From: a virus
Strand: one strand, 5' to 3'
Length of the DNA: 25,723 bases
IMG/VR virus record: IMGVR_UViG_3300021598_000396
Location: 1-25,723 of that record
The position numbers were made by a program, and so were the translations under genes. A model generated the notes under the pieces. That model was given only the letters and a program-made list of their open reading frames with translations. It made no database searches and was not told the origin of the DNA. This document shows, in pieces, positions 1 to 4,600 of this stretch. Every line of letters begins with the position of its first letter. The stretch's first letter is position 1.

Positions 1-393
1 TACACAATGAATGGTTTGGAAATTCAGTTCCAGCCAGATTTCGGCGAAGTAGCAGTAGACCAGGTACTTGACGTTGCTAAGTTGTTCAAGCAAGGCATGC
101 AGGTAAACCTAAATACTACATTCGCAGAATCAACACTAGAGAATCTTCTCTTTGCTCTCGCAGGCAAGGATGCAGATCTAAGCACAGTTTCAGGAAACCC
201 AACACTTAATCTTTCAGCAGGAGACATTGGCGAATGCCCAGTCGAACGTGGTTTGGTTGCAGTTGGTCCAGGAACTGGCGAGTGTGCAGCATCAGATGAA
301 CTCGAAAGAGTCTATGTAGCATACCGTGCACTTTCAATCGAAAGCGTAACAGTATCTGCAAAGAGAGATGAAGCGACAATGTTCGAAGTATGA
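1..393 (+). CDS. Major tail tube protein (5' partial, interrupted by in-frame TGA)
   Basis: Probably the major tail tube subunit, which polymerises around the tape measure to build the tail shaft. The frame is open to the left edge (two codons precede the first ATG at position 7), and residues just after that ATG look internal to the protein, so the true start is probably upstream. The assignment rests on position directly before the tail assembly chaperones and tape measure, on the look of the sequence (NTTFAESTLENLLFALAG, then a strand-rich half ending VTVSAKRDEATMFEV), and on codon use typical of an abundant protein: all four lysines read so far are AAG. The frame stops at TGA 391-393, but the same frame continues with the same codon style to TAA 460-462. 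The intact protein therefore probably includes that extension, by mutation or sequence error, or by readthrough. Family assignment is from memory of actinophage tail proteins, without a search. Confidence 0.72.
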   Translation, partial: YTMNGLEIQFQPDFGEVAVDQVLDVAKLFKQGMQVNLNTTFAESTLENLLFALAGKDADLSTVSGNPTLNLSAGDIGECPVERGLVAVGPGTGECAASDELERVYVAYRALSIESVTVSAKRDEATMFEV

Positions 394-462
394 TTCGGTC
401 TTCTTCCAAATGATGATGCATCATACGGTAAGATCGTAGACCGCACTATCCCAGCAGCATAA
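391..462 (+). other. In-frame continuation of the tail tube gene past TGA
   Basis: After TGA 391-393 the same frame reads FGLLPNDDASYGKIVDRTIPA then a final A and stops at TAA 460-462. This looks like the genuine C-terminus of a tail tube protein. Codons match the upstream part (GGT, CTT, CTT, AAG, ATC, GAC, CGC, ATC). TGA could be a one-base change from CGA, AGA, GGA or TGG, a sequencing error, or a programmed readthrough site giving a minor long form. A perfect 12-base palindrome lies at 413-424, but its loop-free geometry makes a strong hairpin unlikely. Confidence 0.7.
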
Positions 463-480
463 TACAACTTAATATAGGAG

Positions 481-514
481 AGGCTCAATCCTTCGGGGTT
501 GGGCCTTTCTGTTT
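481..514 (+). terminator. Rho-independent terminator after tail tube gene
   Basis: Stem 481-491 pairs with 496-506 (11 pairs, two of them G-U) around a TTCG tetraloop at 492-495. It is followed by a short T-rich tail at 507-514. The stem can extend weakly by about four more pairs. It begins 18 bases after the TAA at 460-462, where the abundant tube transcript would be expected to end or be attenuated before the chaperone genes. Confidence 0.8.
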
Positions 515-522
515 GGTATACT
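514..522 (+). promoter_or_regulatory. Extended -10 promoter, leaderless start for long chaperone
   Basis: TGGTATACT has the extended -10 form (TGn then TATACT). The hexamer ends six bases before the ATG at 529, so transcription would begin at about the A of the ATG. No Shine-Dalgarno sequence lies before that ATG. No good -35 is visible, as that spot is occupied by the terminator. A second TATAAT at 525-530 overlaps the ATG itself. The same arrangement recurs before 20769 and 24260. Confidence 0.45.
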
Positions 523-528
523 TATATA

Positions 529-1209
529 ATGCCTACAGAAATATACAAAACCTCAATTATAGAACTCTTTGATGGAACAGAACTGTATATAACGCCATTA
601 AAAATAAAATATTTAAAGTTATTTTTAGAAGAGTTTGAAAATGTAAAAACAGCAACAAATGATATTGAGGCAATCGATGCTTTGTGTAAATGTGCAACAA
701 TAACAATGAGACAGTATTTTCCAAAAATAAAAACTCAAGAGCAGTTAGAAGATAATATTGATATGCCTACAATATATAAACTTTTAGATTATTCAGCAGG
801 AATTAAGATAAATGAAAAATCTGAAGAGCCAGTAAAAGAACAAGCAAAAGAGAGTGGATCTACCTGGGATGAACTAGATTTAGCAGAGATAGAGTCAGAG
901 GTTTTTTTGCTGGGAATCTGGAAAGATTATGACGAACTAGAATCATCTATGTCAATGCCAGAGATTATGGCTACTCTTAAGGTTAAGAGAGACCTTGATT
1001 ATTCTAACAAGAAGTTTCTTGCTGCAATGCAAGGTGTTGATTTAGATAAATCAAGTGGTAAGCAAGATGCTTGGGAAGAAATGAAGGCTAGAGTGTTTAG
1101 CGGAGGACAAGCAGCAAACTCTAAAGATATTTTGGCATTGCAAGGAATTAATGCAGAAAAGGCAGGTTTTGGAATTGGAATGGGCCTATCTTACGAGAAA
1201 ATAGATTAA
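529..1209 (+). CDS. Tail assembly chaperone, long two-domain form (gpGT-like)
   Basis: This 226-residue protein likely binds the tape measure protein and recruits tail tube subunits, the role of phage lambda gpGT. Residues about 8-95 are paralogous to the short chaperone encoded next at 1262-1603: shared signatures include DGTEL, PLK, an LED box followed by D(M/L)PT(I/V)Y, and a similar length. Residues about 110-226 form an extra C-terminal domain corresponding to the gpT part. In most siphophages this part is reached by a programmed -1 frameshift, but here the two parts are one continuous frame. ATG 529 is preferred over TTG 499, which lies inside the terminator. No ribosome binding site precedes it, so translation is probably leaderless and weak. 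The N-terminal domain is AT-rich (lysine AAA about 11 to 2), whereas the C-terminal domain prefers AAG about 7 to 4, so the gene is a compositional mosaic. Confidence 0.75.
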   Translation: MPTEIYKTSIIELFDGTELYITPLKIKYLKLFLEEFENVKTATNDIEAIDALCKCATITMRQYFPKIKTQEQLEDNIDMPTIYKLLDYSAGIKINEKSEEPVKEQAKESGSTWDELDLAEIESEVFLLGIWKDYDELESSMSMPEIMATLKVKRDLDYSNKKFLAAMQGVDLDKSSGKQDAWEEMKARVFSGGQAANSKDILALQGINAEKAGFGIGMGLSYEKID

Positions 1210-1224
1210 AAACTAGCCCTAGCG

Positions 1225-1255
1225 TGGTATAATTAACTGTTAACCTATAAGGAGG
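1225..1255 (+). promoter_or_regulatory. Extended -10 promoter plus strong RBS for short chaperone
   Basis: TGGTATAAT at 1225-1233 is a consensus extended -10 element. A perfect 11-base palindrome, TTAACTGTTAA at 1233-1243, sits immediately downstream, where an operator could act. AGGAGG at 1250-1255 lies six bases before the ATG at 1262 and is the strongest Shine-Dalgarno sequence in the left part of the window. The combination would give the short chaperone higher expression than the long form. No clear -35 is seen. Confidence 0.5.
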
Positions 1256-1261
1256 AAGACT

Positions 1262-1603
1262 ATGGCTGACAAGCCTTCAACAACAAAAACTACAGACGGC
1301 AAGACCATCACACTAATGGACGGTACAGAACTTTCAGTAAGACCACTTAAGTTATCACTACTTAGACCTTTTATGGCTAAGTTTGCTTTGCTACAAGAGG
1401 CATCAGACGATAATGATAAGTCAATGGATATTCTTATTGATTGTGCACAGATTGCACTAAAGCAATTCAAGCCAGAATTGGCAGAAGACAGAGAAGCGCT
1501 AGAAGATCTTCTAGACCTTCCAACTGTATATCAAATTATCGATGTGGCATCAGGCCTCCAAAACTCTGATGCTGGAGCATTGCTTAATTCGCTAAACAAA
1601 TAA
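1262..1603 (+). CDS. Tail assembly chaperone, short one-domain form (gpG-like)
   Basis: A 113-residue acidic, helical protein paralogous (about a third identical by eye) to the N-terminal domain of the preceding 226-residue protein, but without the C-terminal domain. It would play the part of lambda gpG, the abundant chaperone that coats the tape measure. Start ATG 1262 follows AGGAGG at 1250-1255. Codon use is that of a well-expressed gene (lysine AAG 7 of 9), in contrast to its AT-rich paralogue. No convincing slippery heptamer lies near its 3' end, and the downstream frames lead straight into the tape measure rather than a second T domain, so it appears to be expressed only as the short form. 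The tape measure gene follows after 20 bases. Confidence 0.75.
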   Translation: MADKPSTTKTTDGKTITLMDGTELSVRPLKLSLLRPFMAKFALLQEASDDNDKSMDILIDCAQIALKQFKPELAEDREALEDLLDLPTVYQIIDVASGLQNSDAGALLNSLNK

Positions 1604-1623: not shown

Positions 1624-4600
1624 ATGGCAGATGTAAACTCTAATATTAATATTAATTTTAATACAGATGCCGCCCTTGCACAACTTCGTTTACTTCAGGC
1701 AGGCCTCAGCAGGTTTCATCAATCACTTGCTGAGGGCAACCTGGCTGCTGCAAATGCACAAAAAGGTTTAAACGCTCAACTACTACAATCTATTGGTGCT
1801 ACAGGAAAGTTTTCTGCAAGTCAAGTTAAGGTAGCAGGAAGTACACTTGCATTTACTTCTGCCTTAGAAAAAAATAAATTATCTCTTCGTGAGTACTATC
1901 GATACACAATGGCAGCAGCAACTGCCAATACCCGTGTTCTTGGAAAAGCCTTTGCAGCAGAAAGAGAAATTATAAACCGTGCTCGCCGAGACAGAGTAAA
2001 GGCTTTACAGGCACAATACATCCAAATGAATAAGTCCAATGCTGGATTTATGGATGCAATTAAGATTATGCCAAAAAGTCTTGCGATGGCAAATGGTAAA
2101 TTTACTGAACTTGGAACAAGAATTCAGTATGCTGCACAAAGACAGCAGTTCTTAAATCAGTTACTTAAGCAGGGATCTACACAACTCCTGAACTTCGGTA
2201 AGAATACTCAGTGGGCTGGTCGTCAGTTAATGGTTGGTCTTACAATGCCACTTGCATTATTTGGTGGTATGGCTGCAAAGACATTCAGAGAACTTGAAGC
2301 AGAGATCGTAAAGTTTAAGCGTGTTTATGGAGACGCATTTACTAATGATTCAGAAACAGATGCAGCAGTTAATAATATTAGAAGATTAGCAAGCGAATAT
2401 ACAAAGTATGGCGTTTCTGTAACAAAGACTGTTGAAATGGCAGCAACTGCTGCTGCAGCAGGTTTTACAGGAGCAGCATTAAATGCTCAAGTTGAAACAG
2501 CAACAAAGTTATCAGTTCTTGGTCAAGTTGAACAACAGCAAGCACTTGAAACAACTATTTCTTTACAGAGTGCTTTTGGTCTTTCAAGTGAAGAACTTGC
2601 AAAGAAAATTGATTTTCTTAACGCAGTAGAAAACCAGACACTTTTATCGATTGAAGATTTAACAGTTGCTATTCCAAAAGCAGCGCCAGTAATTAAACAA
2701 CTTGGTGGATCTGTAGAAGATCTTGCATTCTTTATGACTGCAATGAAAGAAGGCGGAATCAATGCATCAGAAGGCGCTAACGCACTAAAGTCTGGTCTCG
2801 CATCTTTAATTAATCCATCTGATAAGGCAGCAAAGTTTCTTGGAAACTTGGGCATTAACATTAAGTCAATTGTTGATCAAAACAGTGGAGATATCAAAGC
2901 AACTGTTGTTGGTTTTGCACAAGCACTTGATAAATTGGATCCACTTAACCGTGCACGTGCAATTGAGCAGATGTTTGGTAAATTCCAGTTTGCACGTCTA
3001 TCAACATTATTCCAAAATGTTACAAAAGATGGTACTCAGGCATCTAGAGCACTTGGTTTAGCAGGAGCATCAATAGAAGAATTAGCAATTCTCTCTGAGC
3101 GAGAAATGAAAAAAATTGAAGATTCCGTAGGTGTAAAATTCCAGGCAGCGGTAGAACAATTTAAGCAAGAGATTATGCCACTAGGAAAAATATTCTTAGA
3201 AGCGCTAACTCCAGTTGTTAAATTTTTTGGATCACTATTTGAAAAGTTTAATGGACTAAGTGATCAGACTAAAAAGGTTATTGCAGTTATTGTTGGAGTA
3301 GTTGCAGGCCTTGGTCCAGTTCTTTTGATGACCTTTGGTTTACTTGCAAATGGTGTTGCAAATGCTATTAAATTCTTTGCACTTCTTCGTGGAGGAATAG
3401 CAAGACTAAACGGACAGACAAATGTTTTGGGTGCAGGGTTTAACTATATGACACAAGAGCAGATAGAAAATGCTGCTTCATCACAATCTTTGCATCAAAC
3501 TCACACAAGATTAATAGAAGTATTTAACGTTGAAAAAGCATCTGTTAATGCACTTGCTTCATCTTATAATTTTCTTAGTACACAAATGCGAGCAATGGCA
3601 TCTCAAAACCCTGCACTATTTGCTGGGGGAGCACCAGGAGCAACATCAGCAGTACGAGGGCTACCTCCAGTTAGAAGGTATAAAGATGGAATTTTAACTG
3701 TACCAGGTCCAAAGGGTGCAGGAGATATTCAACCTGCAATGCTTGCTCCAGGTGAAGCAGTTATTCCAGCAAAGACTACTGAAAAATATAAAGGTTTGAT
3801 TAGTGCAATATTTAATGATAAGGTTCCAGGATTTATGGCTGGCAGAATTCCTGCTGGTCCTGCTAAGTATTCCACCAATGACTTGATAATGCAAAGGATA
3901 AAGCGTTCTACTTACCCTGGCACACATCCAGAAAAACAGTCTGGTCCTCAGTTTGTTGGAATGCCAAAGTCTGCTGAACAAGCATCTCAGTCAAGACAGA
4001 TAGTAGAAAAAATAGCGCAGCAAGCAAGTCTTGGAAGGTTTGGAACTTTGCCTCCTTCAGACTTTGGAACATTATTACAACCATTTTCTGGAAGAAGTTT
4101 CCCTGTGCGAGGAGTCGGCGGAATATATAGAAAGCCCAATGGAGAAATCGTAGTAGTAAAACCAACAATGGATGAAAGAACTGCTTTAGCAGAAGTTCGT
4201 GCTACTGAGATTGCTAGAGAAGTTCATGGATTAATTGCGCCAAAACAAAGCATTAGAACAATGATTGATCCAACAGATCCTTCAGGACAAAGAAAGTTTG
4301 TTGTTGTTGAGTCTCCGTATGATCCAAGAATTGCGGCAATGGATGGCAAGTTCTCTAGATCTGACATGATTAAGCAATTAGTTGCGTCAACACTAAGAGG
4401 AGACAGAGACTTACAACAGGCAAACCTATCTGGAAATGTATTGGCAGATGTTGGAACTGCTGGAGTATTTGATAGAGCATCTGGCTTTAGGGATTTTGCT
4501 AAGACAATGCCAAGCATGGAAGAGCAAGCAGTTGTTAACCTTCTTGGAGTAAAGGGTGGAGCAAAGAAGTTCTTTGCACAAGAAACATCATCTCTTGCAG

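Follow-up and report, generated by a model that had tools for sequence, protein, structure and literature searches.

Separate long and short genes for putative GT- and G-type tail assembly chaperones in a probable actinophage lineage with frameshifting relatives

Organization of the Tail Gene Block

The window, that is the whole stretch of DNA analysed here, is a 25.7-kb virus record that carries on its plus strand, in this order, a tail tube protein gene, a terminator, two putative tail assembly chaperone genes designated LONG and SHORT, and a tape measure protein gene (Table 1). The LONG frame is open from its ATG to the stop codon at 1207-1209 and encodes 226 amino acids, in which an N domain (residues 1 to about 100) is joined in frame to a T domain (residues about 113-226). 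SHORT ends with the stop codon at 1601-1603 and encodes 113 amino acids. An earlier reading made from the letters of the sequence alone (the sequence-only reading) had described LONG as one unbroken two-domain frame and SHORT as a separate paralogue sharing the landmarks DGTEL, PLK, and D(M/L)PT(I/V)Y. Both descriptions hold: the landmarks were all found, SHORT and the LONG N domain share 38% identity over 85 residues (BLASTP, E 2e-20), and profile searches assigned the N domains of both proteins to phrog_10504 and, for LONG, the C-terminal part to phrog_10474. These two PHROGs are without a named function, but in Streptomyces phages the homologous ORFs carry the annotation of tail assembly chaperones, and LONG is homologous to the G and the -1 frame T ORFs of Stanwilliamsviridae phages. 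Searches of Pfam and NCBIfam assigned no named family to LONG or SHORT. The pair is flanked by the phrog_2175 gene upstream and by the gene matching PF10145 and tape-measure PHROGs downstream, an arrangement also seen in the relatives, and no G or GT gene beyond these two was found in the tail block.

Table 1. Features of the tail gene block in the window.
Feature	Position	Strand	Remarks
Major tail (tube) protein gene, 3' part	1-459	+	phrog_2175 match
Intrinsic terminator in the gap between tail tube gene and LONG	477-510	+	15-pair stem, T-rich tail
Extended -10 promoter of LONG, TGGTATACT	514-522	+	ends 6 nt 5' of ATG 529
LONG, putative GT-type tail assembly chaperone	529-1209	+	phrog_10504 and phrog_10474
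In-frame heptamer T TTT TTG of LONG	903-909	+	judged incidental; present in 19 of the 158 relatives that could be scored
Extended consensus -10 promoter of SHORT, TGGTATAAT	1225-1233	+	10/12 sigma-70 match, TG
Shine-Dalgarno site of SHORT, AGGAGG	1250-1255	+	Shine-Dalgarno site in 100% of SHORT upstream regions
SHORT, putative G-type tail assembly chaperone	1262-1603	+	ATG start; paralogue of LONG N domain
Tape measure protein gene, 3,940 aa	1624-13446	+	PF10145, E 2.8e-28; Shine-Dalgarno start

Structure models, for which the alignment was built without phage-record sequences, reached a mean pLDDT of 73.9 for LONG and 77.2 for SHORT. Compared with PDB entries, the LONG model resembled YqbN (3klu; Z 5.4, rmsd 4.0, 84 residues aligned) and the HK97 chaperone (2ob9; Z 4.3), and 2ob9 was also among the top folds for SHORT (Z 4.6, rmsd 4.5, 88 residues aligned), all of these scores being modest. 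The top match of SHORT in BFVD carries a tail assembly chaperone annotation (E 1.8e-6, TM 0.74/0.80). Foldseek searches of both models against PDB alone yielded no significant match, and a PDB sequence search with the two proteins found nothing.

Three further observations concern neighboring or related genes. In the tape measure protein, an OmpA-family domain was recognized around residues 3385-3477 (PF00691, E 2.7e-12), and beyond it follows the sequence HEILH, a motif of the kind typical for zinc metalloproteases. In the tail tube frame, an in-frame TGA is present at 391-393 and a Gly codon at 397-399. At these two positions Ser and Arg are encoded in nearly all relatives, the 99%-identical contig L003 among them. 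Recoding of this TGA was considered and rejected, because the relatives carry a sense codon at this position (Ser in nearly all) and because the window differs from the 99%-identical contig in two neighboring codons; the TGA occurs in no relative, the frame being open across that codon there, and is probably a sequencing error or the mark of a damaged copy. Finally, LONG of a near-identical relative (L034/L084; IMGVR_UViG_3300021594_000045) is C-terminally shortened to 202 amino acids, its T match ending at residue 78 of 102, which may stem from misassembly or be a genuine truncation.

Two Arrangements among the Relatives

Most long-tailed phages produce two forms of the tail chaperone from one gene by a programmed ribosomal slip. 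This G/GT frameshift is described as widely conserved among them, T4 excepted, and is usually explained by the need for a fixed ratio of the two forms. Relatives of the locus were collected from seven viral-contig scans (the best 80 matches of each) and from phage records, and in at least 506 of them, counts that do not represent frequencies in nature, the whole block could be classified. At least 373 loci (248 distinct) combine a fused LONG with a separate SHORT, as the window does, and in at least 133 (107 distinct), Streptomyces phages among them, T comes after a single G gene. In the latter group T lies in the -1 frame in all 107 distinct loci among the matches listed. The heptamers in the overlap of G and T are CCCAAAC (65 distinct loci), CCCAAAT (20), and GGGAAAC (16), with CCCTTCC, CCCGGAA, and AAATTTA/G as rarer candidates (two each), again among the matches listed. 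Fourteen additional loci are incomplete, the contig breaking off inside the block or next to it. Among the matches listed, the two states are never mixed in an intact locus: none has LONG without SHORT, and none has a second N gene beside a frameshifted T. The switch from one arrangement to the other is not imposed by base composition, since some of the frameshifting relatives are as AT-rich as the duplicated loci.

Search for Frameshift Sites within LONG

The sequence-only reading had seen no good slippery heptamer in LONG. Taken literally this needs correction, as two XXXYYYZ heptamers, T TTT TTG and TTTAAAG (612-618), do lie in frame, but it stands insofar as neither the window nor its relatives revealed a conserved frameshift site in LONG, or an internal stop codon. 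LONG could nevertheless be supposed to yield both chaperone forms by itself, slipping at T TTT TTG or at another A/T-rich heptamer, with SHORT as a spare or specialized third chaperone. The presence of T TTT TTG in frame, just inside the T domain, would be in line with this, but a slip at this heptamer was rejected: it is not a conserved site, because just 19 of 158 scorable relatives have it, and the commonest form of the equivalent codons is A TTT TTG (70/158). In the LONG linker, in-frame XXXYYYZ heptamers occur in 29 of the 248 distinct loci listed, every one beginning with AAA where the DNA is A-rich; the three motifs common in the relatives are not among them. CCCAAAC, CCCAAAT, and GGGAAAC, the common heptamers of the single-G loci, are present in 0 of these 248 LONG linkers. 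Moreover, every intact fused-LONG locus among the matches listed also has SHORT, which is unlike the behavior of a dispensable gene, so that slippage within LONG as the source of both forms is very improbable. What characterizes frameshift-encoded gpG and gpGT is not seen here, as T shares one ORF with the N domain in the window and in the other duplicated loci.

Start Signals and Terminators

The signals ahead of the two genes differ consistently. Upstream of LONG, 168 of the 181 distinct regions listed contain the pattern TGnTAnnnT with its end 6-9 nt away from the start codon. At this spacing it precedes 3 of 821 other long ORFs of the same loci, and shuffled sequences gave a mean of 2.1 in 195. 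A Shine-Dalgarno core was found in 0 of the same 181 distinct LONG upstream regions among the matches listed. All 211 distinct SHORT upstream regions listed, by comparison, contain a Shine-Dalgarno site (mean duplex energy -9.9 kcal/mol), and their -10 element, located about 25 nt before the start, has TG in 100% and reads TATAAT in 97%, against a TATAAT share of 18% among the -10 elements of LONG. Among 33 divergent representatives, the Shine-Dalgarno site was found in none of the LONG and in all 33 of the SHORT upstream regions. The single-G genes of the frameshifting relatives resemble SHORT (Shine-Dalgarno site in 99%, TATAAT in 95%). Since LONG and single-G starts are homologous and align at the first residue, the LONG start is no mis-annotation. 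In 52 of 94 distinct upstream regions of single-G loci, for example L129 and L131, the apparent start codon is TTG, following a good Shine-Dalgarno site; the SHORT start codon, unlike that of many single-G genes, is nearly always ATG.

A terminator-like hairpin lies 5' of LONG in 175 of the 206 distinct regions listed (vs. 5 in shuffles) and in the gap between LONG and SHORT in 2 of 222. Transcripts of LONG should thus run on through SHORT. The tape measure gene, whose starts have a Shine-Dalgarno site in 98% and lack an extended -10 in 194 of 210 cases, has no promoter of its own. In the window, the terminator ahead of LONG and the extended -10 and AGGAGG of SHORT were already noted in the sequence-only reading, and all three were recovered. 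That reading was also right that LONG has no ribosome site, but it overlooked the -10 element of this gene, and "leaderless" is the fuller description.

A -10 element at this spacing together with the lack of a Shine-Dalgarno site is the signature of a leaderless mRNA, with a transcript predicted to start at the start codon itself. In Mycobacterium tuberculosis, about a quarter of the genes with a mapped start are leaderless, and the TANNNT motif is centered 7-12 bp upstream of the transcript start site (PMC3898074). Judged from these elements, the start signals would favor SHORT over LONG, which is the direction that G:GT assembly requires, because SHORT combines a strong -10 with a Shine-Dalgarno site and a terminator is located before LONG but not between LONG and SHORT.

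The contrasting signals might also serve another end, if LONG and SHORT differed by client or by stage rather than in ratio and the leaderless start provided timing instead of dosage. The N domain of LONG is indeed diverging from SHORT, and leaderless mRNAs gain in relative expression in starved M. tuberculosis (PMC3898074). However, the pair occupies the exact position of G and GT, the domain order and linker of LONG are those expected of the frameshift product in the relatives, and the block is without any other G or GT gene; we therefore regard a difference in client or stage as improbable.

Indications for the Host

A gene for WhiB, which is an actinophage marker (PMC10202952), was detected in 16 of 17 long relative contigs. 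As far as gene content can tell, the host is thus plausibly an actinobacterium, in which case leaderless translation would be plausible as well. A search of bacterial genome contigs retrieved one relative, L361 (CAINGU010000031.1), a 110-kb contig in a bin labeled as an uncultured cyanobacterium, whose G/T locus is of the frameshift type. It is probably a mis-binned phage, and as a single relative of the frameshift type in such a bin it conveys no reliable host information.

Phylogeny and Recombination

The sequence-only reading had taken the N-terminal domains of LONG and SHORT to be homologous, and an N-domain tree agrees with the BLASTP result in this respect. SHORT forms one clade (100/98) and LONG another (89/51), and each of the two appears to be of one origin. 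In trees of the T domain and of the tape measure protein the duplicated loci likewise fall into one group each, with one or two intruders. Two such cases are L203 and L204 (about 2995-3674), frameshifting loci with CCCAAAC whose T domain is nested among those of duplicated phages, as is the tape measure start of L204. Parts of the tail module have thus probably been moved by recombination at least once; the nesting suggests either recombination or a reversion to frameshifting in these two phages.

SHORT is grouped with most single-G proteins (99/98), and LONG is placed outside this group on a long branch, its N domain sharing about 31-42% identity with SHORT and with outgroup G. Taken by itself, this branching suggests an older split or an acquisition from another phage. 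The LONG N domain would then have come in by recombination, which L203 and L204 indicate for this region, or from an older duplication, and the frameshift would have been lost afterwards. Yet a constrained LONG plus SHORT clade was not rejected (p-AU 0.317), and no LONG-type N domain was found in any frameshifting phage among the tree representatives. In addition, the LONG N domain may have been placed too deep because it evolves faster, with a mean pairwise identity of 51.5% as compared to 64.7% for SHORT and 66.3% for T. A foreign or older origin of the LONG N domain is therefore possible but rather unlikely. We favor a single duplication, in which one copy would have been fused to T and its N domain would subsequently have changed faster, since the LONG N domain is the fastest changing part and the clade uniting it with SHORT is not rejected. 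The date of this duplication is blurred, as the position of LONG outside SHORT and single G is set against that same p-AU value.

Proposed Origin and Expression of the Gene Pair

The profile searches, the N-domain tree, and the frameshift search all support the interpretation of the sequence-only reading, according to which the G:GT ratio is set by separate start signals after a duplication. We consider it highly likely that LONG represents the GT and SHORT the G chaperone of an actinophage, that the two genes derive from a frameshift locus, and that their ratio is governed by separate starts; their function as GT and G is deduced from homology and gene position. The following course of events is proposed. 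An ancestral frameshifting G/T locus would have gained a second copy of G. One copy would have been fused in frame to T, losing the slippery site and its leader, and become LONG, and the other would have kept its strong leader, lost T, and become SHORT. The LONG RNA would begin at the start codon, from an extended and usually non-consensus -10, and would consequently be translated as a leaderless mRNA. SHORT would be made from its own consensus extended -10 and strong Shine-Dalgarno site, and also by read-through of LONG transcripts. With both sources contributing, an excess of SHORT over LONG is to be expected, and at the protein level this excess would replace the fixed efficiency of a frameshift. 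The G:GT ratio would accordingly be determined by how strong the promoters and the initiation sites are, not by how often ribosomes slip. Following the model for phage lambda, SHORT would be the abundant coat of the tape measure protein and LONG the scarce recruiter. The more far-reaching proposition that one switch from recoding to duplication underlies the entire actinophage lineage, with the ratio resulting from a leaderless LONG and a Shine-Dalgarno-led SHORT, has in our view an even chance of being correct.

This phage group would have abandoned the G/GT frameshift while its close relatives kept it, and the states before and after the switch can be compared side by side. These phages therefore allow a test of whether the ratio requires frameshifting or whether a slip is just one of the ways of setting it. 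The start signals of LONG also suggest that leaderless initiation can serve as a viral dosage device. In this case the G:GT ratio would depend on the capacity of the host for leaderless initiation and could thus vary with host physiology, unlike the fixed outcome of a frameshift. For genome annotation it follows that gene pairs of the LONG and SHORT type should not be forced into the frameshift model.

Comparison with Known Systems

In lambda, the G:GT ratio of about 30:1 is crucial for assembly, and according to the model for this phage many G and few GT coat the tape measure protein, with T recruiting the tail tube protein (PMC5009743). LONG and SHORT resemble lambda gpGT and gpG in the shared N domain, in the additional T domain of the long form, and in their position between the tail tube and tape measure genes. 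They differ from these in that lambda relies on one slip site, whereas here two genes are present and LONG lacks a conserved slippery heptamer.

The closest cultured relatives among the matches listed are Stanwilliamsviridae phages of Streptomyces, and tblastn matches in the phage collection were, among those listed, restricted to Streptomyces and Rhodococcus phages. BillNye, Coruscant, and EGole share homologous G and T proteins and the gene order with the window, but have a single G with a Shine-Dalgarno leader and no second G, and their T follows CCCAAAT or CCCGGAA in the -1 frame. Microbacterium phages of cluster EA possess two separately expressed chaperone ORFs with no evident frameshift (PMC7302621). 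Such expression of two chaperone ORFs is reminiscent of LONG and SHORT, but the description of these phages includes no fused long form accompanied by a paralogous short form. A literature search for tail assembly chaperones and leaderless expression jointly returned, as far as titles tell, no entry naming either subject.

A chaperone pair of T4-like phages is reportedly described by Vladimirov, Gautam and Davidson (2022, Virology 566:9-15). As summarized, with reference to that work, in the PRFect paper, some T4-like phages encode the short chaperone and the fused long one in a gene each and use no frameshift (PMC10885494). Compared by this description, the likeness to the present locus lies in the separate short gene, the fused long gene, and the absence of frameshifting; the differences lie in the actinophage lineage, the frameshifting sister loci, and the pairing of a leaderless with a Shine-Dalgarno start. 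Separate short and fused long genes are thus known from T4-like phages, and, measured against the same description, the frameshifting relatives and the conserved leaderless and Shine-Dalgarno start pair are new. LONG and SHORT would then represent a T4-like gene logic in a different, probably independent lineage with distinctive start signals.
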